From a virus: a stretch of DNA of 32,175 bases. The translations under genes and the position numbers were made by a program. Positions 7,413 to 19,268 of this stretch are shown here, piece by piece. The notes beneath the pieces are model-generated. The model was not told the origin of the DNA. It ran no database searches and saw nothing but the letters and a program-made list of their open reading frames with translations. The stretch covers positions 1 to 32,175 of IMG/VR virus record IMGVR_UViG_3300017742_000057; one strand, given 5' to 3'. Positions within the stretch are counted from its first letter, which is position 1; every line of letters begins with the position of its first letter.

Positions 7413-8189
7413 TTATGGGGAATCATCCCATATTACGTTTGGATCAGGAGGGCCACCAATTTCAATCACAACAGTGTTGGATTCGGGTGTATCGGTACTT
7501 GAACCCGTTCTTACCCTAACACCAGCATCGGTATAACGTTTCGAAGTATCAAAGTCATTAAAGAAAGTATCCACAGACTTGATAAGACCGGTGGTTTGAG
7601 GGTTACTCGTGAACTTGGTTTTAACGCTAAAGGTTAGTGTGTAAACTATAAGACGTCGAGAAGATTCAAAGTCTCCTTCATACGCATCTTCTGCGCTTAC
7701 GCCTGATAACGTTATTGGTACATCTGTTATACTTTCAGGACCTTCAAGACCTTTAACGCTTAAAGTATAATTAGGATTAAAATGCGGAACAATTTGCTCA
7801 AGTATCTGAAGAGCTTCATCCTGTCCTCTTGACATAATGTTCAGTGAAAAATCAAGAGTGTATGGTACGCATTGATTTACTTTAACTTTATTTCCTTCAC
7901 TGTCAGTTTGAACATTTCGGTTTAAACGATTTAACTTGGTGGATTGGTCAAAGCTCAATCCTGTCATTTCAAACGACATGCGGGGTAGTCTAAGTGCAAC
8001 GTCCCGCTCCGCCCGAGCTTCAACTCTGACCAGATATTTTTCCTTTGGAGCATAAGCAAGTGGAACCCGCCTTGCGCCAATTAATTTACCAGCATCAAGC
8101 TGCGCTATTTGAATGTCATTAAACATTTGACCAAAAGCAGCAACCATATTCTTTATGGTTCCATTGTAAAAGTATTCGTGTCCAAGCAT
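7413..8189 (-). CDS. 15: Tail sheath stabiliser/completion protein gp15, second copy
   Basis: Caps the contractile tail and joins it to the neck. The protein is 258 residues (T4 272). Family features are the N-terminus MLGHEYFYNGTIKN, RVPLAYAPKEKYLVRVE, LPRMSFEMTGLSFD, NIMSRGQDEALQILEQIVPHF, LKGLEGPES-type region, DAYEGDFESSRRLIVYTLTF, and VDTFFNDFD near the C-terminus. It is clearly homologous to the adjacent upstream gene over its whole length, so this is a tandem duplication. It has a longer C-terminal extension than the other copy, ending in DDSP. The gap from the first copy is 8 nt, with only a weak ribosome binding site. Which copy performs the canonical function cannot be told from sequence. 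Confidence 0.93.
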   Translation of the reverse strand: MLGHEYFYNGTIKNMVAAFGQMFNDIQIAQLDAGKLIGARRVPLAYAPKEKYLVRVEARAERDVALRLPRMSFEMTGLSFDQSTKLNRLNRNVQTDSEGNKVKVNQCVPYTLDFSLNIMSRGQDEALQILEQIVPHFNPNYTLSVKGLEGPESITDVPITLSGVSAEDAYEGDFESSRRLIVYTLTFSVKTKFTSNPQTTGLIKSVDTFFNDFDTSKRYTDAGVRVRTGSSTDTPESNTVVIEIGGPPDPNVIWDDSP

Positions 8190-8197
8190 AATCTTAA

Positions 8198-8926
8198 TTA
8201 GGTTCCAGGCTTAGTTCCAATAACCGTACTGGTTTCAGTTACTCTTACTCCAGCATCAACATACACGCCGTTGGTGTCAAAGTCGTGGAAGAAAGTATCA
8301 ACCGTTTCTATAAGGCCAACTGACGACGGGTAAAACGCAAACTTTGTTTTAAGTGAGAATGTTAGAGTATAAACTATAAGTCGGCGAGAAGATTCAAAGT
8401 CTCCTTCATATGCGTCTTCAAAGTTAACACCTACAAGACTAATAGGAACATCAGTTTTACTTTCAGGACCTTCAAGACCTTTAACAGTAAGAGAATAGTG
8501 TGGACTAAAGTGCGGTAGTATTTGTTCTACTATTTGCAAAGCTTCATCCTGTCCTCTTGACATGATATTCAAATCAAATCCCAACTCATAAGGAGCGGGT
8601 TGCCATACTTTAACTTTACTTTCTGGACTACTTGTAGCATCAGTTTGAATTGTTCTGTTTAAACGATTCAGCTTTGTGGTTTCATCATAAGAGATGTCTG
8701 TCATTTCAAATGACATGCGGGGGAGCTTGAGCGCAACGTCCCGCTCCGTTTCTTCTTTAACTCTCGCTAAATATTTTTCTTTCGGCGCATATGCAAGAGG
8801 TACCCGTTTAACACCAACCATCTTCCCTCCACTAATATTGGCCACTTCAAGGTCATTGAAGATTGTGCCAAAAATAGACACAATCTTCTTTAGTGTTTCA
8901 TTATAAAAGTATTCGTTACCTAACAT
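8198..8926 (-). CDS. 15: Tail sheath stabiliser/completion protein gp15, first copy
   Basis: Homologue of T4 gp15, which terminates the tail and connects it to the neck. The protein is 242 residues. It starts MLGNEYFYNETLKKI and contains RVPLAYAPKEKYLARVK, ERDVALKLPRMSFEMTD, NIMSRGQDEALQIVEQILPHF (in part), KGLEGPESKTDVPI and DAYEGDFESSRRLIVYTLTF. These blocks are nearly identical to the neighbouring copy, while the first 40 residues and the C-terminal tail differ. It starts 2 nt after the gp14 stop, so it is probably translationally coupled. The order gp13-14-15-16-17 is canonical, with the duplication inserted in place. A small loop containing SSPES replaces a different loop in the other copy. 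Confidence 0.93.
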   Translation of the reverse strand: MLGNEYFYNETLKKIVSIFGTIFNDLEVANISGGKMVGVKRVPLAYAPKEKYLARVKEETERDVALKLPRMSFEMTDISYDETTKLNRLNRTIQTDATSSPESKVKVWQPAPYELGFDLNIMSRGQDEALQIVEQILPHFSPHYSLTVKGLEGPESKTDVPISLVGVNFEDAYEGDFESSRRLIVYTLTFSLKTKFAFYPSSVGLIETVDTFFHDFDTNGVYVDAGVRVTETSTVIGTKPGT

Positions 8927-10865: not shown

Positions 10866-11186
10866 TCATTTCCGAATAAATCGCGAAGGATTCTTTGCGA
10901 TCCTTTTAGCCAAAGTAACAATGCCTTCAATTACTTCTGGTGATATAACACCAACAATTCCATAAATCACAGCTTTATACAAACTATCAATTGATGTTTG
11001 CTCTAGTATGTACCACGCAATCCCACTTGATATAGCAGCGGCTGGAATCCGTTTACAAAGAAGCTGAGCGGTAATACTTTCCTTTGAAGAAAGAATTCTT
11101 GCGATCATACCCGCCGCACCAATAAGTGGAACCAACCAACCTCCATCTAAGAAGGCCTGGATTAATGATTTTTGGGGCTCTTGCAT
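10866..11186 (-). CDS. Putative holin (LydA/Phage_holin_3-like)
   Basis: Likely forms holes in the inner membrane to time lysis. The protein is 106 residues. After a short polar N-terminus there are three hydrophobic segments: about 15-33 (GGWLVPLIGAAGMIARIL), about 47-62 (RIPAAAISSGIAWYIL) and about 68-90 (LYKAVIYGIVGVISPEVIEG). They are joined by short charged loops, and the tail is basic (KRIAKNPSRFIRK). The arrangement 'L-GA-A-R-L ... R ... A..G...W ... Y..G..G..SPE..E' resembles the P1 LydA-type holin family. Context supports a phage late membrane protein. No endolysin is present in the window. An exact TATAAATA lies 18 nt upstream. The alternative is an unrelated small virion or superinfection-exclusion membrane protein. 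Confidence 0.68.
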   Translation of the reverse strand: MQEPQKSLIQAFLDGGWLVPLIGAAGMIARILSSKESITAQLLCKRIPAAAISSGIAWYILEQTSIDSLYKAVIYGIVGVISPEVIEGIVTLAKRIAKNPSRFIRK

Positions 11187-11204: not shown

Positions 11205-11212
11205 TATTTATA
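11205..11212 (-). promoter_or_regulatory. T4-type late promoter TATAAATA upstream of the holin-like gene
   Basis: An exact TATAAATA on the minus strand lies 18 nt before the holin-like ATG, in the short gap after the helical-repeat gene. The predicted leader is about 13 nt, with no obvious Shine-Dalgarno. It would let the lysis pair be expressed independently of the glycan-modification genes. Confidence 0.65.
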
Positions 11213-11235: not shown

Positions 11236-11991
11236 TTAAATATAGTTTTTTAACAAATCATTAGCTTTCGTGTAAAGCCTTGGACACCTTACATTATCCT
11301 TACCCATGATTGTTTCTAAAATTGCTGACGCCGCGATAATTACAGAAAGCCTGTCGACAAGTACTATTTCAAAGTTGTGAATTGCAGCTTCATAAATCTC
11401 TTTTGAATATTCTGCGTCCTGCCCTGTCACATAACACGCTCCCAACACATTTACCATTGCTGCAGGCCATAATTTAATATCAGCAAAGGAATGTATCTTA
11501 TTGAAAAAATTTAAAGCCTCGTTGACATTTCTTTCTTTTACATAGCAATGTGCCAGTGCAGTCCAAATTGAGGTGATCCAACGATAAGTAAATTTACGCC
11601 AATAAGGATCATTGAATTCTTTGAAACCTTGCAGGTCTTTATAAAGACTTTCCAGCTCATCAATAGATCCCATGTCGTCATAAATGTATCGATAAGCAAG
11701 TGTACAAAAAGACTGACTTACAACTTCAAATTTATCGGGATAGATCTGAGCTAAAAGAAAAGCCCGACATCTTTGGTACCCTGCCGGATCGTCGTTTCTA
11801 CCTTTAAAGTTTCTTACAAACCTTTTGGGGTTATAACGAAGGCCTTCTAACATTCGGTTAAATTCATCAAGATCCAAACCCGGAATAATCAGATCATTAT
11901 CAGGAAGGGATGAATAGTCAAACGAAAGCTTAGTATCCTTATAGGTTATAAAAACACTATTTTCTTTCCAAGAAATATTAGGGACCATCAT
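11236..11991 (-). CDS. Helical-repeat (TPR-like) protein of the glycan cassette, unknown function
   Basis: About 251 residues if the start is the ATG at 11989-11991; the next codon, at 11986-11988, is also ATG. The open frame extends upstream to an ATG at 12069, but that start would overlap the sulfotransferase gene by 92 nt. The internal start, with about 14 nt of overlap, fits the tight packing of the operon better. No clear Shine-Dalgarno separates the options. The N-terminal 40 residues look beta-rich (ENSVFITYKDTKLSFDY). The rest is helical, with TPR-like alternation around WTALAHCYVKERNVNEALNF and VNVLGACYVTGQDAEYSKEI. It could be a scaffold or specificity partner for the two upstream transferases. 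I do not recognise a specific family. Confidence 0.68.
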   Translation of the reverse strand: MMVPNISWKENSVFITYKDTKLSFDYSSLPDNDLIIPGLDLDEFNRMLEGLRYNPKRFVRNFKGRNDDPAGYQRCRAFLLAQIYPDKFEVVSQSFCTLAYRYIYDDMGSIDELESLYKDLQGFKEFNDPYWRKFTYRWITSIWTALAHCYVKERNVNEALNFFNKIHSFADIKLWPAAMVNVLGACYVTGQDAEYSKEIYEAAIHNFEIVLVDRLSVIIAASAILETIMGKDNVRCPRLYTKANDLLKNYI

Positions 11992-12967
11992 TTTCGGAGG
12001 TATTATTAAGTTGATCTGAAAGTTCTTTAACCTTATCTTCAAGCTGGTCAATACGACCCATGGCTTCAATAGAGAAGATGATTGCTTGGTCCACCAGTCT
12101 TTTGTAATCTTCTTCGCTTATCTTCCGTTCTTTAGGGGGCGGGTCATTTTGAAACGAGATAGATTCGTCTCTCAGAATCATCGCTAAGCTTTCTATGTCT
12201 TTTAACGAAAAATAATTTTTTGAATACTCTTGAACGCTACCGTAGTTTACATACGTGTCAAACTTGTGAGGTGTGACGGGGTCTGAATACGTATTATTAT
12301 AGATAGCTCTCGACAAAATTTCAGATGATGATGGAGTTTCATACGCTCGGATTCGTGGAAGGTCTAAGCCCGTAACCTCACAGAAGTCGTCAATAATATT
12401 TTCCCCTTCTTTATATTGTCTAATTTCAGCAATTTTTCTCCACCACTTCCAACTGTTATAAGTTCCAGCGCCAAATTCATGAAACCATCGAGGTAAAGTC
12501 ATTGAGCGTAAAATCTTTTCGTCCATCCTCCTTCGCCGCTCAAATATTTTGCCTTCAAGAACTTTATGTCTAAGACCCCACTGCTCCCATGCTGACTTTA
12601 GCCACTGCCCGGGCGCTCTAACATAAAGTATAATCTGAACATCAAGATCAGGTGACCAGGTCGAAAGATGTCTAAGTAACTTAACAGCTTCTGGGGTATT
12701 GGATATTGCTTCGTTTGACCAAAAAACGTGATCACAGCCGGTCTTCTTTGAATGAGAGACAATAATCTTATACAATGTTTTGGTCTTTTCTGCGGTGTGC
12801 TGCGAAACTAACCACTCGTGATTCATTCGATTCCCATCGGGTAAAATTGGCCACAGCCTTCCCAGACCCGTTTTACCCGCCGTAAGATTTCCTTTATACT
12901 CTTGTAATGCAAACTGAATTGCACTTGTTCCGGTTTTACCTAAACCGATATGTGCTGTAAACTTCAT
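11978..12967 (-). CDS. Sulfotransferase-like protein (PAPS-dependent type)
   Basis: Probably transfers a sulfuryl group from PAPS to a glycan or protein acceptor. The protein is 329 residues. The N-terminal HIGLGKTGTSAIQ (residues 6-18) matches the 5'-phosphosulfate-binding loop of sulfotransferases (HIG..KTGT..IQ). A second strand-turn, IILYVRAPGQWLKSAWEQW (residues 112-130, with Arg117 and Ser125), matches the 3'-phosphate-binding motif. A conserved-looking VFWSNEAI lies between them. The C-terminus is a charged coiled-coil-like segment (about 295-325, EAMGRIDQLEDKVKELSDQL). The ATG overlaps the glycosyltransferase stop by 4 nt (ATGA), so the two are coupled. No PAPS-synthesis gene is visible, so PAPS would come from the host. 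The acceptor is unknown. Confidence 0.8.
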   Translation of the reverse strand: MKFTAHIGLGKTGTSAIQFALQEYKGNLTAGKTGLGRLWPILPDGNRMNHEWLVSQHTAEKTKTLYKIIVSHSKKTGCDHVFWSNEAISNTPEAVKLLRHLSTWSPDLDVQIILYVRAPGQWLKSAWEQWGLRHKVLEGKIFERRRRMDEKILRSMTLPRWFHEFGAGTYNSWKWWRKIAEIRQYKEGENIIDDFCEVTGLDLPRIRAYETPSSSEILSRAIYNNTYSDPVTPHKFDTYVNYGSVQEYSKNYFSLKDIESLAMILRDESISFQNDPPPKERKISEEDYKRLVDQAIIFSIEAMGRIDQLEDKVKELSDQLNNTSENDGP

Positions 12968-14124
12968 CCAATTAATCTTTCTACCTTTTCATCCCAAACA
13001 CTCTTAGAGAATTTTTCGTTAACTAGTTTTCTAGCAGAGTGAATTTTCGACCTACTTTGACCTGTTAGGTGGAAGTAAAGAAGTTCCGCGTATTTTTTTG
13101 CTTCATCCTCTATCTCAAAATCAATCAAATAGTTTAAAGGAACCAGTTCGCTTACAGCACCAACATTACTAACAGCCATTGGAACTGACCACTGCATTGC
13201 TTCAAAATATGTAAGAGGTATACCTTCGTCAACCGAAGGGCAAACAAGCGCACTGGCTCGTTTATAATACTCTTGCATTTGTTTATAATCAATACCTTTC
13301 TCAAATTGTATCCAGTGGCTAACTTTCAGTTTCGCTGCATGTTCTTTAATGTCTGTATAAAGCGGGCCGTCTCCAACAAACTTAAAAACCGGCATATAAG
13401 CGGCAGGTAAAAGCTTAGCCAACTCTGCAGCAATATCACAAACAAACTTAGGACGTTTTTGAAAGTGAAAGCGGAAAGGACATAGTACGTACCTGGGATC
13501 TTTATCTGTTTTCCTTAAAGGCCAAGTCTTTTCTATCTCAGGAAACCCGAACCAATAAAGGGTTTCAATCATTCTTTTATTTACGCCTTTTTCAATAAGT
13601 TCATTCTTAAGCTTATCCGAAACAGTTAGTACCAAATCAAAAGGAGTTCCTTTTTGAAGGCTTTTCTCAAAGTCCCAAGGTTCTTTTAAAATCATGTGAA
13701 ACAAAGAAATTAACTTTGTATTTGGCGCAGCTTCTTTTATTGCCCAAGCTTGATCATAAGCTTCATGCGAATTATTGACAACCGTGTAAACGGGTTGCAG
13801 CTTTCTAACGATTTCTATAACCTCACCGGCACAAATAACGTCGTCAGCAAGTTCGGTAAATGCAGATTCCCTTCGGCTTTCTTTATGCGGCATTATCCGC
13901 GTTGTTATAATGACGATTCTAAAGCCTCTGTTTTTATAATGCAGCATTAAATCCAAGCCGCATCTATCCGCTCCTCCGAGCGACATCCAAGGGATGATAA
14001 GACAAAAGACGGGCTTTTCTTCAGTGTGCTTTGACTGAGATTTTAGAATGACCGGTTTTTTACCAAGTGCATGGCGGGACGGTCGAGATGTTTGGCGTTC
14101 AGTTCTTTTGGACCTTCGGGACAT
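12964..14124 (-). CDS. Glycosyltransferase, GT4-like (GT-B fold)
   Basis: Likely transfers a sugar from a nucleotide-sugar donor. The protein is 386 residues. After a basic disordered N-terminus (about 1-35) the GT-B fold begins with PVFCLIIPWMSLGGADR, whose GGA is the usual acceptor-side glycine motif (about residues 50-52). The C-terminal donor domain shows CPFRFHFQKRPKF (about 215-227), FKFVGDGPLYTDIK, and the EX7E signature EGIPLTYFE with Glu300 and Glu308, followed by PMAVSNVGAVSELV. It starts 16 nt after the collagen-like fibre gene and is coupled to the sulfotransferase. An AT-rich TATATAAT stretch precedes the start. No membrane segment is seen, so it probably acts in the cytoplasm, on a virion protein or on a precursor of a host or phage glycan. 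Confidence 0.9.
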   Translation of the reverse strand: MSRRSKRTERQTSRPSRHALGKKPVILKSQSKHTEEKPVFCLIIPWMSLGGADRCGLDLMLHYKNRGFRIVIITTRIMPHKESRRESAFTELADDVICAGEVIEIVRKLQPVYTVVNNSHEAYDQAWAIKEAAPNTKLISLFHMILKEPWDFEKSLQKGTPFDLVLTVSDKLKNELIEKGVNKRMIETLYWFGFPEIEKTWPLRKTDKDPRYVLCPFRFHFQKRPKFVCDIAAELAKLLPAAYMPVFKFVGDGPLYTDIKEHAAKLKVSHWIQFEKGIDYKQMQEYYKRASALVCPSVDEGIPLTYFEAMQWSVPMAVSNVGAVSELVPLNYLIDFEIEDEAKKYAELLYFHLTGQSRSKIHSARKLVNEKFSKSVWDEKVERLIG

Positions 14125-14140
14125 ATATTATATATATGCC

Positions 14141-15355
14141 TTAGTAATCAGCTGCATCAAAGTAAAGACGAACTCGAAGGAAGCCACTAACAGAATCAAG
14201 TCCACTAGTACCAGATGGATCATTACTAGGATGGCCATTCTGGATAACCTTTATGTTAATGCCATCCCCGGCGGCAACTGCTACACTTACAGCACTGCTT
14301 GCTCCAGTGTAAATTTGTCCTCGGTGCGATCCAGTATCATGTGCAAGCGGGGTTGTTGGATTTCCGTCAACTGTCACCGTTGTTAAAGTTACAGCTGTTG
14401 GGCTATCATCAGGATCTCCCACAGTAATAGCAAACTCAGGATCGCCCTGATCTGACGCGACAACTGCCCATGCTGGAATATCAATTTCTGCTTTACGGAA
14501 TGTCATTGTAGTGTTAACACCCATAAAGAAAGCAGTCTCATTTACTTCCAATGGATCCACGACATTAGCCGAAGATTTAAAATCGGAAACAGGCATATCC
14601 AACGAGTAAACATAAGGGCGAACACTAATAGCACCAGCGGCTCCAGTTGCGCCTTGAACACCTTGAGCACCAGTTGGTCCAATAGGACCTGCAAGACCTA
14701 CACCAGTGGGCCCCGTAGGACCAGTGGGTCCAGTTGCGCCTTGACTTCCGGCAGGACCCGTAGGACCAGTTAAACCTGTGGATCCTTGAGGACCAACTAC
14801 ACCAGCAATTGCGCCAAGGTCATCCCATTCTTCTGGAGAATTATCAGGCCCTTTATATGCAAAAAGGTGAGGGGTTCCACTTGCAAATTCATCACCTGGG
14901 GAATCAGATAAACTCCCTGGGCCAATCTTAACAATAAAACATGTACCTTCTTTTTGAAGCTCATCAGCAAGAGGATTAGGACTTGAATAAGAAACAGGAA
15001 GGTCATCACCATAGTCAACAACACCAGCAATCGCTACACCAACACCAGGGTCTCCTTTAACATTACCAATCACTTCTGTTGAAGAATCGGACTTGACCTT
15101 TGATACATTACCGTCAGAGTCAACAGTAATATCTGTAATAATAGCAATAGTATCAAGGTATTCATTTACTTCTCCAGCAACCTCACTTGTGATATTAAGG
15201 TTGTTTGTTACCAAATCACCATTTTCGTTAAGGAAAAAGATTTTTTGATCGGCGGCATTAAACGCAATTTCACCGTCTCTTAGTGAATCGACATTCGGAG
15301 ATTCTCCAGATGAAAAGGAGTGTTTTAAAATAATTCTTGTAGGTGTAGTAGCCAT
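14141..15355 (-). CDS. Fibre protein with collagen-like stalk
   Basis: A trimeric virion fibre or whisker is likely. The protein is 404 residues. The N-terminus ([20 protein letters not shown], then [20 protein letters not shown]) is a recurrent virion-attachment module of marine T4-like fibres. A globular region follows to about residue 187. Then comes an uninterrupted Gly-X-Y tract (about 188-241) rich in Thr and Pro ([20 protein letters not shown]), which should form a collagen triple helix. A C-terminal beta-rich domain (about 242-404) is the probable trimerisation or receptor domain. The gene lies where T4 has its gp11-12-wac genes, between the long fibre and the glycosyltransferase. The Thr in the Y position resembles the O-glycosylated collagen-like region of Bacillus BclA, so modification by the adjacent transferase is an attractive inference. 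Confidence 0.85.
14634..14794 (-). repeat. Collagen-like Gly-X-Y repeat tract within the fibre gene
   Basis: About 18 consecutive Gly-X-Y triplets are encoded, dominated by GPT, GAT and GPA/GPI-type triplets with no break. The DNA is locally repetitive (GGACC, CCAGT and similar on the plus strand). Pro and Thr enrichment is typical of phage and bacterial collagen-like stalks, where Thr can replace hydroxyproline for stability or carry glycans. Confidence 0.9.
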
Positions 15356-15373
15356 GTTAGTAGTATATATATT

Positions 15374-18300
15374 TTATGAAGACAGAACCTGAGCCTCGAT
15401 TGGATGCCAATCTGCTTTACCATCGACTTGCTGTCCTGAACCAGCTCCTAGGAAGTATGTCGCGATGCCAGCTCCATAACTCCGGCCGGGTTTAGCCGCA
15501 AATTCTGCTTCGGTTTCTCCGACAACAGCGGTTTTAGCAATTGCGAACGATGCAACATAATTACCTCCACCGGATGAAACCAGCCTCGAGGTTTGTATTG
15601 CAACAATATTTTTAGGATCTTCTGGAAACGGAACTCTGATATAACGGCGTGTTGTCGAGTTAAAGTATTTACCTGTTCCTAATCGACCAGTAGTATTGCT
15701 TCCTCCAGCAAATAACGCATATTTACCTGCTTCACCTTTCGATTCAGCAACAATGAATATACTTCCTGCATTGGAGCCATAGGCACCGGATGAAACAAAA
15801 ACCTTTTCGACCCACCAATTAGCATCAATAGTAGTTGATAAAGTAAAGGCGGTATGGAGGGCCCGACTTGATAGACTACCATCTTCCCTGTCAGCTAAAC
15901 CATTGTCTGCATCTCCGGCATGTCGAATAGAACGATTTCCGTCGGTATTTTCAGTGATAACAAATGAGCTATCACTTGATGAAATTGCAATGATATCTAC
16001 AGGGCGATCATCTGTTCCTAGAGAAACCACTCCAGGACTTCGAGTATTAACAGCAGCGCCTCGACCAAGCTGACCTCTGTCATTTTGACCCCAAGACATA
16101 ACAGTTACGCCGCCAGTAATATCGGTTTCTGAAAGAGCATCTAGCTCGGTAGCGGAATTTGGCGTATTAACTGTTCGTCTTGCTAAAACAAAGGCGCTAG
16201 AGTTTGTGCTTGTCGTCGCTCCAACTGAAATATCAAACATACCTTTTAATTTTGCAAGGTGACTTACAGTCCTGTTGCCAATAGAAGCATCAGGATAAGC
16301 ACTAGTTGTTCCTCCTTCAGCAAGAGCGTTGTATGCGCGGGTTTCGTCAATAAACAATCTAAAGTGAGATGAAAGGTTTGCGTTATTTTCGTCACCGCGG
16401 ATAATGTAATAGAATCTATTATTAAATTTTAATCTTTCAAAGTCTTCAAATCCGTGATCTACATTGGCTTCACCAGATCCGGTTCCAGCTGCTGATCGAA
16501 ATACTTTATTACTAGTACCGGTAACCACTTGAAGGAATATCGCGCTATCCAATGTTGTTCCACTGTCCAAAGCAGGAACGTGTCTCATCACGAAGCTATC
16601 AGTGTCTCCATTTCCTCCCTGTCCTTGTCCGTTCCATCCGGCAAACCAAAGTTCGTTGTCGTTTTCATTACCAGGCTTCCCAACAATATGCCAAGAAGTA
16701 AAGGCATTAATAACAGATTTTTTAATGTAGTAAGAGTATTGATCAAATGTTTCCGATCCAGTGAGACCAAGCTCGGTTTTCCATGCAGCAAGAGCCGTTG
16801 CATCATCAGTATCATCAAGGCCGCCTTTTAGAGTTGCGTTGCTCTTGTAATAATGGAATCGTTTGTTAACTTTTTCAACAGCATCAGAATCAAGGCTGCT
16901 AATACCTGCAGCTCGTTCTGTATCAGTTAATCCGAATGTAGCCCAAAGACCGCTTCCCGCACTATTAAGACCATACACCAAAGGGCCGGAAGCATCGTAT
17001 GATGTCTTTGCTGTGGATCCAGTTCCTAATGTGCCGTAGGTGGCATTAGTTATTCCAATCACCCAACCGCGAGTATAAGGAACACCCGCACCGGCAACAG
17101 CAGCGCTGCTCGTTTCATATCGTTCTAAACCATTAAGGCGATTGCCACTAACGTATTCGTTGCCAATACCGTCTTTGGTCTTGATAATAATTCCAGGCTG
17201 GCTCTCTTCATTTGTATAAGTTACCGTATCAACAGTAACAGCATTGGCAGGCCATGAACTCTTTTGAGGAAGCATGGCTGGGTTTGGAGTTTCAACCGCG
17301 GTATCGTTGTATGGCTGCTCCCCGAACGAATTAAACTCAGAGTAATAATCTATAAAATCGTCTGCGGCTGTAGTGCCGCGGGATTGTTGACCAATCTCGC
17401 CGCTGATATTTCTTCCACTGCCATAAAGAACGTCATCTTCATCTATAAAGAAAAAGTTATAATGATTTGCAAATGAACGTTTAAAAATTGCTTCTTGATT
17501 CGTAATTGGTGAAATGGCAGCGAACCAACCATCAGGTTTATCATTGCGATATTGACTCGTCCCATGCCGCTCTTGATTGTTTATACCAATAACTCGGCCT
17601 CTTCCATCTCTATCTACCATAGTTACTGTCATTTGGTTATCGAAATATGATTGGTGGCCATCGATAAGTTCTGCAAAGGACTTAACGCTATCCTCGTATA
17701 CTCTAACTTTTGTAAGGGCGGAATCGACAAAGGCCTTTGTGGTAGCGTGAGCATCTTCGGTTGGAGTTGCCACAGAAAGTGTACCTGCAGAATCCCGTTT
17801 AGCAAGTGTATTAGCAGTTGCTGCAGTATCAATCTCTTCAACGAGCTCAAGTTTTCCACCTACACCAAATGCGAAATCATCGGTATTAATATTTAGTCCA
17901 ATCTTTCCTCCCGTAATATCAAAGAAACCAACCTCAGCATTACTTGTATCAAAGAGGTTAATTCCCGAAGCACCAGCAACACCTGTAGTAGTTGAAACTG
18001 CAAACGATGTAGTGTCGTCACTCTTGTATTTAATAAGGTAAACAATTGCATTACCTCCAATAGGATCTTCTTCACCTGGTGACCCGATTGTATCAGGAAG
18101 TGTTGTACTTCCGTTAGGACTGTCAATACCTTCAAGTAATTCAATAAGCTCTTTAAACTCAGTATCAATCGGGCTATTTTCTGTATCGTCAAAAGAAAGA
18201 GTTTGACCCGCGCAAGGGATCCAGCCTGGGACTGTATTTAAAATACCGTAGTTTTCAGGACTGCTTAATCCGTTTAAAGTTTCAGGCCAATTGTCAAGGA

Positions 18301-19021
18301 TTCTCGCATCTACTGCAACCATTGTTCCAACCGGAATCAAAGTAACTGGAAGAGTAAAGTTAGACTGCTGCAGTGCTGCTATAACGTCTGCAAGAATACT
18401 AGTAGCAAAAGAACTTTGACCTAGCCATTCAAGTTGACTTCCAGTTCCGCTCCATTTTAAAAGAGACGGTGTAACGCCTGGTGATGTGGCAGGTAAGTCC
18501 CATTCATAGTTGTTAACACCAATCGTTGGTGAGGAACCTGCAAGAGCAAGCTTGTTGCCATCAGCAATTTCAAAAATACCTTCTCCAGCTCCAGAATAAT
18601 CAAACTGAAGTTTTTCTGGTGTACCTGCGTTTTCAAATTTAAGAGATGCAACACTAGAAGTAGAAGAAGATTTTAAACCAATACCACTTGCCCCAATCAC
18701 TTCAAATCCACTGCCCGTGGTAAAGGTGCCAGAATTAATCTGAAACGTTGGCGCATTAATTATTCCGGTTGTTCCACCTAAAGTAAAGTTACCTGTACTC
18801 GTAATGGTTCCGGTGCTCGTAAAACCTCGCGTTAAAGTTGCGGATTGGGTAAATGATTTCTGACCAGTGATTGTTTGGTTAGAAGCTAATGTCAGAAGCC
18901 CTTCTGAACTTGTAACAAAGTCAGTAGAGTTTAGACCATCAATGATCTCATTACATTTATCCGCCCACTCTTTAAACGTGTCGGTGTTGTCAATTCGTGT
19001 TAGATTAAAGTCAAAGGCCAT
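15374..19021 (-). CDS. Large tail fibre with collar-like domain and RCC1-like beta-propeller
   Basis: Probable receptor-binding fibre, 1215 residues. The N-terminus (FNLTRIDNTDTFKEWADKCN, then EIIDGLNS) is the standard attachment module of marine T4-like fibres. It is followed by a repetitive Thr/Ser/Gly beta region (about 50-200). A phage tail-collar-like domain spans about 230-340, with VGTMVAVDARIL, GWIPCAGQTLSF, TLPDTIGSPGEEDPIGG and IVYLIKY. The C-terminal half (about 520-1200) has at least five RCC1-like blades recognised by 'WG.N..GQLG.G' patterns: LYGSGRNISGEIGQQ, LWFAGWNGQGQGGNGD, SWGQNDRGQLGRG, RHAGDADNGLAD and LFAGGSNTTGRLGTG. A propeller could bind a surface glycan or protein. A GATAAATA box lies 23 nt upstream, with an AGAAGAA region as a possible ribosome site. 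The position matches T4 gp12/wac. Confidence 0.88.
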   Translation of the reverse strand: MAFDFNLTRIDNTDTFKEWADKCNEIIDGLNSTDFVTSSEGLLTLASNQTITGQKSFTQSATLTRGFTSTGTITSTGNFTLGGTTGIINAPTFQINSGTFTTGSGFEVIGASGIGLKSSSTSSVASLKFENAGTPEKLQFDYSGAGEGIFEIADGNKLALAGSSPTIGVNNYEWDLPATSPGVTPSLLKWSGTGSQLEWLGQSSFATSILADVIAALQQSNFTLPVTLIPVGTMVAVDARILDNWPETLNGLSSPENYGILNTVPGWIPCAGQTLSFDDTENSPIDTEFKELIELLEGIDSPNGSTTLPDTIGSPGEEDPIGGNAIVYLIKYKSDDTTSFAVSTTTGVAGASGINLFDTSNAEVGFFDITGGKIGLNINTDDFAFGVGGKLELVEEIDTAATANTLAKRDSAGTLSVATPTEDAHATTKAFVDSALTKVRVYEDSVKSFAELIDGHQSYFDNQMTVTMVDRDGRGRVIGINNQERHGTSQYRNDKPDGWFAAISPITNQEAIFKRSFANHYNFFFIDEDDVLYGSGRNISGEIGQQSRGTTAADDFIDYYSEFNSFGEQPYNDTAVETPNPAMLPQKSSWPANAVTVDTVTYTNEESQPGIIIKTKDGIGNEYVSGNRLNGLERYETSSAAVAGAGVPYTRGWVIGITNATYGTLGTGSTAKTSYDASGPLVYGLNSAGSGLWATFGLTDTERAAGISSLDSDAVEKVNKRFHYYKSNATLKGGLDDTDDATALAAWKTELGLTGSETFDQYSYYIKKSVINAFTSWHIVGKPGNENDNELWFAGWNGQGQGGNGDTDSFVMRHVPALDSGTTLDSAIFLQVVTGTSNKVFRSAAGTGSGEANVDHGFEDFERLKFNNRFYYIIRGDENNANLSSHFRLFIDETRAYNALAEGGTTSAYPDASIGNRTVSHLAKLKGMFDISVGATTSTNSSAFVLARRTVNTPNSATELDALSETDITGGVTVMSWGQNDRGQLGRGAAVNTRSPGVVSLGTDDRPVDIIAISSSDSSFVITENTDGNRSIRHAGDADNGLADREDGSLSSRALHTAFTLSTTIDANWWVEKVFVSSGAYGSNAGSIFIVAESKGEAGKYALFAGGSNTTGRLGTGKYFNSTTRRYIRVPFPEDPKNIVAIQTSRLVSSGGGNYVASFAIAKTAVVGETEAEFAAKPGRSYGAGIATYFLGAGSGQQVDGKADWHPIEAQVLSS

Positions 19022-19043: not shown

Positions 19044-19268
19044 CTATTTATCACTGTACATCACAGCTTCTAATTTAATAATTCTTTCTTTTAACTCGCA
19101 AACTTCGCGTTTAAGTTCTTTAATTTCCTTATTACGTTTCTTTCTGGCAAGAGCTGATTTATAAGCATCTTGATCGGTATTAAGTACTACACCTGTTTCT
19201 AGATTTTTTACTAAATGCGGGTTATCAGCAACCTGTCTTTGTGATTCATCCATGTTAAACGGTTGCAA
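19044..19268 (-). CDS. Small coiled-coil virion-associated protein
   Basis: A 74-residue protein with two parts. The N-terminal half contains HLVKNLETGVVLNTDQDAYK, a motif (K-E/D-T-G-V-I-L-N-T) shared by a small protein found beside wedge genes in many marine T4-like phages. The C-terminal half is a basic-then-acidic coiled coil (ARKKRNKEIKELKREVCELK and following heptads). It overlaps the end of the 1814-residue protein gene by 14 nt, so it is translationally coupled to it. The role is unknown; a chaperone or connector for the neighbouring wedge or fibre proteins is inference. Confidence 0.8.
   Translation of the reverse strand: MQPFNMDESQRQVADNPHLVKNLETGVVLNTDQDAYKSALARKKRNKEIKELKREVCELKERIIKLEAVMYSDK
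19045..19052 (-). promoter_or_regulatory. Late-promoter-like GATAAATA upstream of the RCC1-like fibre
   Basis: One mismatch from the T4 late consensus, overlapping the last codons of the 74-residue gene, 23 nt before the fibre ATG. The predicted leader contains the purine-rich AGAAGAAATTAA. The overlap with coding sequence makes chance occurrence possible. Confidence 0.4.

Follow-up and report, generated by a model that had tools for sequence, protein, structure and literature searches.

The window, by which we mean the whole stretch of DNA analysed, is a viral contig of 32,175 bp from an uncultured marine phage, with a GC content of 40%, and it covers the late region of a T4-like myovirus. 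Its structural genes are all located on the minus strand and run, in the order of transcription, from gp25, gp6, baseplate proteins, a 1,814-aa phrog_358 protein, and a small virion protein, through an RCC1-repeat fibre, a collagen-like fibre, a glycosyltransferase (GT), a sulfotransferase (ST), a TPR-like protein (TPR), a holin-like protein, and a 71-aa protein, to gp13, gp14, gp15, gp3, gp16, gp17, gp18, gp19, and gp20. The portal protein shares only 51–55% with those of the nearest isolates, which are phage C48C1, cyanophages, and Methylophilales phages. The gp3-like and gp15-like genes at 7413–8926 are tandem paralogues with about 68% protein identity, and both match the tail sheath stabilizer family. 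The features in and around the cassette of GT, ST, and TPR are the following:

15374..19021, minus strand: RCC1-repeat fibre protein, 1215 aa, with PF00415 and PF25390 matches; candidate acceptor
14141..15355, minus strand: collagen-like tail fibre, 404 aa, with PF01391 and PHROG tail fibre matches; candidate acceptor
12964..14124, minus strand: GT4-family glycosyltransferase (GT), 386 aa, GT-B fold by family; first gene of the cassette
11978..12967, minus strand: predicted PAPS-dependent sulfotransferase (ST), Sulfotransfer_4-like, 329 aa, assigned from motifs, profile, and AF2 model
11236..11991, minus strand: TPR/PPR-like helical repeat protein (TPR), 251 aa, with weak TPR/PPR matches
11205..11212, minus strand: T4-type late promoter motif TATAAATA, found by motif scan just downstream of the cassette and serving the holin gene
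10866..11186, minus strand: holin-like protein, 106 aa, with weak PHROG and Pfam holin matches; downstream boundary of the cassette

A preliminary description of this DNA had reported three tightly packed, overlapping genes between a fibre gene and the lysis and neck genes, and this layout holds. All three are minus-strand ORFs; the overlap is 4 bp between GT and ST (12964–12967, ATGA) and most likely 14 bp between ST and TPR. The holin-like gene, the 71-aa ORF, gp13, and gp14 lie to the left of the cassette, and the collagen-like fibre gene followed by the RCC1-repeat fibre gene lies to the right. The holin-like protein matches the PHROG holin family weakly (E = 0.002) and is 84–100% identical among relatives. 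Only a few bases separate the two fibre genes and the cassette, and the motif scan found no exact late promoter copy between the 11205–11212 motif and position 19163, hence none directly before the cassette; the fibres and the cassette therefore probably share one transcript. The collagen-like fibre contains 19 G-X-Y triplets, nine of which have threonine or serine in the Y position. The RCC1-type propeller repeats of the neighbouring fibre are unusual in a protein of this kind from a phage.

The GT4 assignment of the first cassette gene stands well clear of the threshold, as GT matches the Pfam family Glycos_transf_1 (PF00534) with 60.4 bits against a curated cut-off of 26.4 (E = 2e-16) and the stretch DEGIPLTYFE is conserved (EG...YFEA). 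Its nearest PDB relative is WaaB, an LPS 1,6-galactosyltransferase. In all 17 contigs that contain both genes, the window included, GT directly follows the collagen-like fibre.

ST matches the Pfam family Sulfotransfer_4 (PF17784) with an E-value of 5e-4 and 20.5 bits, which is under the cut-off of 22.8, and as a predicted protein it is therefore filed in the PAPS-dependent sulfotransferase superfamily, outside that family. A single-sequence search of the PDB with ST gave no match. A scan of bacterial genomes yielded 43 homologues, and plasmid records contain further ones in Rhodobacterales that are about 24–30% identical over the full length, several of them annotated as polysaccharide biosynthesis protein. 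The 5'- and 3'-phosphate motifs named in the preliminary description are borne out by conservation, with H6, G8, K11, T12, G13, Q18, S84, E86, and R117 invariant across 38 sequences. The 5'-phosphate loop reads H6-x-G-x-x-K-T-G-T-S-A-I-Q18 and is accompanied by S84-x-E86; in the 3'-phosphate motif, R117...S125, the arginine is invariant in the homologues and the serine in the phages. The invariant residues correspond to the putative 5'-phosphosulfate loop and the putative arginine of the 3'-phosphate site.

The alignment profile of ST extends this assignment to solved structures. All PDB matches at E ≤ 0.02 are sulfotransferases, led by 3rnl (2e-5) with cytosolic SULTs near 1e-3, and the 3'-phosphate region aligns with the SULTs and 3rnl. 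An earlier structure prediction from seven phage sequences only, with a pLDDT of 55 and a meaningless Foldseek result, was repeated with the bacterial homologues. The resulting AlphaFold (AF2) model from 35 sequences has a pLDDT of about 90 in the core and 72 overall, and places strand 2–8, a loop, and helix 14–21 around the 5'-phosphate loop, and strand 109–117 followed by a helix at the 3'-phosphate motif. The top four Foldseek matches of the core are SULT2A1 with PAPS, the curacin sulfotransferase, a Schistosoma sulfotransferase, and human TPST1, with E-values of 1.5e-3 to 5e-3, probabilities of 0.94–0.99, and low TM-scores of 0.26–0.33 that make this support for the fold only. Against viral models, the Synechococcus phage S-SCSM1 sulfotransferase was found (2e-4). 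A PAPS-binding fold, on whose presence in the 329-residue protein the preliminary description had made its reading depend, is thus what both profile and Foldseek point to. Weak by Pfam alone, the case is solid with homologues, motifs, profile, and fold, and ST is predicted to be a genuine PAPS-type sulfotransferase.

For the third gene, the preliminary description was right about the ORF, and the TPR-like label that it gave is weak. The protein has one TPR/PPR-like repeat, with all Pfam scores below the cut-off and a single, weak NCBIfam PPR match just over it. The listed start of the ORF is a TTG at 12069, but translation most likely begins at the ATG at 11991, giving 251 aa and an overlap with ST of 14 bp rather than 92, because this is where the homologues have their start (MIVPKISW... 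in L021 and L023; 251 aa in L006). Phage and plasmid records contain no relatives of TPR, and none were found outside the clade. Between relatives, dN/dS is 0.10–0.24 for GT, 0.17–0.30 for ST, and 0.15–0.26 for TPR, and by this measure none of the three is a chance ORF. Purifying selection acts on all cassette genes, the comparisons for the two further sulfotransferases described below (ST2 and ST3) being recent and noisy.

Relatives were gathered with ST, gp13, and GT as queries, which gave about two dozen distinct contigs. The trio, which the preliminary description had proposed to look for in related phages, recurs in several of them, and other relatives have swapped content. In addition to the genes of the window, the site holds ST2 (Sulfotransfer_2, 4e-24), ST3 (Sulfotransfer_3, 1e-6), and PyrT (polysaccharide pyruvyl transferase, 7e-18), in these combinations:

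GT-ST-TPR: the window, L002, L006, L101–L106, and L108
GT-ST2-ST-ST3: L008 and L112
GT-ST-ST3-TPR: L110
GT-ST-TPR-PyrT-TPR: L022, and also L125, a contig that begins after GT
GT-ST-TPR-PyrT: L124
GT-ST2-PyrT-TPR: L109
GT-ST2-PyrT: L107
GT-TPR-PyrT: L113 and L114
No cassette (empty site): L024, with about 120 bp and a late promoter between fibre and holin

Every cassette that can be read through to the holin gene contains at least one anionic transferase, either of the ST families or PyrT. No function other than GT, anionic transferases, and TPR was seen at the site in the roughly two dozen contigs, and no membrane partner (flippase or GtrA) in any cassette read. Exchange is visible in L008, whose DNA is 99.2% identical to the window from the holin onward, whereas its GT is 90% and its ST 66% alike and TPR is replaced. 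Recombination also appears within the ST gene: the similarity of L007 and L021 is 98–100% in the first 80 columns and falls to about 60% in the 120 that follow, and L007 and L009 are 91–92% alike over the last 120 columns only, so that near-identical ends occur in some pairs with the rest divergent. The mosaic genes are located as follows:

L007:1678-2634: mosaic ST gene
L009:6001-6945: mosaic ST gene
L021:135-1106: mosaic ST gene

The late promoter motif is conserved at the empty site of L024, and beside gp13 in this contig (L024:1340-2158) lies a homing-endonuclease-like gene with NUMOD3 repeats. Members of the cassette families were found in none of the more distant T4-like contigs L028–L096. 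The annotations of P-SSM7 and S-SRM01 show no sulfotransferase between the fibres and gp13, and those of S-SRM01, P-SSM7, and Melnitz-2 show no cassette families beside gp13. That a sulfotransferase coupled to a glycosyltransferase in the late region is unusual, as had been remarked, agrees with 50,697 phage records, in which ST has no match and GT has only two weak ones (about 26% identity, in one case over the full length and in the other over a part). The trio is one state of a clade-specific, recombining, swappable cassette with a constant GT, which could not be seen from the window that the preliminary description was based on.

These observations can be joined in a model in which the cassette decorates glycans late in infection, together with the fibre genes, the acceptor being a virion component and probably a fibre; we give this model about an even chance. 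By its family, GT would act as a soluble GT4 enzyme that uses a nucleotide-sugar of the infected cell as donor for the sugar it transfers. ST, by family and motifs, would then sulfate a hydroxyl group of the sugar added by GT, with PAPS made by the host as the sulfate source, and in relatives other sulfotransferases or the pyruvyl transferase would take its place, each adding negative charge. Action of ST on the GT product is likely, because three sulfotransferase families and PyrT interchange beside a constant GT, each able to charge a sugar, and the same combination is found in a Paracoccus cluster. The TPR-like protein is a possible adaptor, which at a guess might hold enzyme and acceptor together. 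From position, the acceptor would most likely be a co-made virion component, with the collagen-like and RCC1 fibres as first candidates; this is favoured because the cassette follows the fibres by a few bases with no exact late promoter between them. Recombination would change the type of charged glycan found on the virions, and this may alter adsorption, non-specific binding, or recognition while the fibre's own sequence stays unchanged. No APS kinase is encoded in L097, a near-identical but incomplete contig of 71.7 kb, and so a phage-borne source of PAPS is set aside and PAPS would come from the host. SAR11 is a host without assimilatory sulfate activation, and a host supply of PAPS would disfavour hosts of this kind.

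The absence of a membrane partner, the purifying selection, the cassette swap in L008, and the empty site in L024 count for decoration of a virion component. The lack of an exact late promoter directly before the cassette and the lack of an APS kinase in L097 count against it, and so does the relation between cassette and fibre types, which might be expected to vary together if each enzyme set served one fibre. No such co-variation was seen among the relatives compared: L101 and L108 have ST 98% and TPR 99% alike, yet their collagen fibres are only 57% alike, and L006 and L113 differ in their cassettes, yet their collagen fibres are 91% alike. A correlation of 0.80 between the RCC1 fibre and ST rests on 15 non-independent pairs. 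In Bacillus BclA, threonine in collagen GPT repeats is a glycosylation site. Such repeats are not a marker of modification here because they persist in L024, which has as many without a cassette, and this too is counted against the model.

The missing co-variation would fit a target other than the fibre, and the cassette could instead edit a host surface glycan such as LPS, capsule, or exopolysaccharide, with GT adding a branch and ST or PyrT a charge, which would stop superinfecting phages, or progeny released close to debris, from binding. The closest bacterial ST homologues do lie in Rhodobacterales polysaccharide clusters with glycosyltransferases and other sulfotransferases, and GT resembles LPS enzymes. 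In a T4-like phage, however, enzymes encoded in the late structural operon beside the lysis genes would have little time to make a surface change matter, and no cassette has a lipid-linked or membrane partner; we regard this as rather unlikely. The genes could also have unrelated targets and have nothing in common but a permissive insertion site behind the fibre, ST sulfating a host lipid or small molecule as auxiliary metabolism. Isolated auxiliary sulfotransferase genes of unclear function occur in cyanophages and OM43 phages (PMC10580990), and the site clearly accepts gene exchange, but cargo taken up at random should include other functions, whereas here GT is constant and its partners are all TPR or anionic transferases of glycan type, which makes this explanation improbable.

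DNA glycosylation has to be considered because L097 encodes a T4-type dCMP hydroxymethylase on its minus strand (L097:11692-12357, E = 7e-84 against the solved T4 enzyme), with a dCMP deaminase nearby, and the phage group may have hydroxymethylcytosine DNA. GT would then glycosylate 5-hydroxymethylcytosine as in T4, and ST or PyrT would further modify the sugar to block restriction. T4-like phages glucosylate or arabinosylate hydroxymethylcytosine (PMC6024577), and neither AGT nor BGT was found in the 71.7 kb of L097. GT is nevertheless a late-region gene of LPS-type GT4 likeness, unlike the T4 DNA glucosyltransferases, and when tested for the AGT (PF11440) and BGT (PF09198) families it matched GT4 families instead; the related L024, moreover, has no cassette. 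Beside the deaminase and hydroxymethylase genes lies a 426-aa orphan (L097:9573-10853, minus strand) whose C-terminus looks GT-B-like by eye, a reading for which no database support was found. It is a candidate DNA glycosyltransferase of an unrecognised family and a better one than GT, and DNA glycosylation by the cassette is therefore ranked low, as quite improbable. On the same strand, L097 also carries a sugar nucleotidyltransferase gene followed by one for an EcbF/BcbF capsule-type phosphatase (L097:7711-9586), possibly for nucleotide-sugar supply, and a flavin-dependent halogenase-like gene (L097:13880-15133, PF04820, 2e-30) that recalls cyanophage halogenases.

Returning to decoration of the virion, we propose tentatively, and with less than even confidence, that T4-like marine phages of this clade coat their virions in part with glycans that are sulfated or pyruvylated, and swap the type of charge by cassette, in parallel to change in the fibre sequence. 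Position and exchange tie the sulfotransferases here to GT and PyrT, which gives the testable hypothesis that charged glycans are produced during late infection. Sulfated sugars on virions, if present, would give phages a post-translational layer of surface variation. Such a layer would bear on adsorption in sea water and on how hosts and grazers recognise the particles, and it would offer a source of new glycan sulfotransferases.

Virion glycosylation is known in mycobacteriophages, whose glycosyltransferases are thought to act on virion proteins, and to our knowledge no sulfotransferase or pyruvyl transferase partner is known there. Such glycosylation is hinted at in one report (PMC11256854). 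Among open-licence papers, we found neither a phage glycan described as sulfated or pyruvylated nor a swappable cassette of this kind, and nothing relevant on phage sulfotransferases together with tail fibres or glycosylation. Sulfotransferases themselves are known in marine phages, where their role has been called unclear (PMC10580990); those of S-SCSM1, P-SSM7, and OM43 phages (phrog_3347) resemble the gene of the window in being PAPS-sulfotransferase fold genes of marine, mostly T4-like phages (PMC10580990), but belong to different families with no detectable sequence match. DNA glycosylation in T4 and RB69 shares with the present case a T4-like phage and, through the near-identical contig, hydroxymethylcytosine synthesis (PMC6024577), and differs in its glycosyltransferase families, its gene location, and the lack of sulfate or pyruvate. 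The polysaccharide cluster of Paracoccus pantotrophus pPAN2 (L172) has the order GT-ST3-ST2-ST1-ST2 with overlapping ends, like the cassette, and its ST is about 30% identical to that of the window over the full length; unlike the cassette, it is a large, plasmid-borne, non-viral exopolysaccharide cluster with a UDP-galactopyranose mutase and a large GT. Set beside these systems, a swappable cassette for anionic decoration appears to be new, while phage sulfotransferases are already known.
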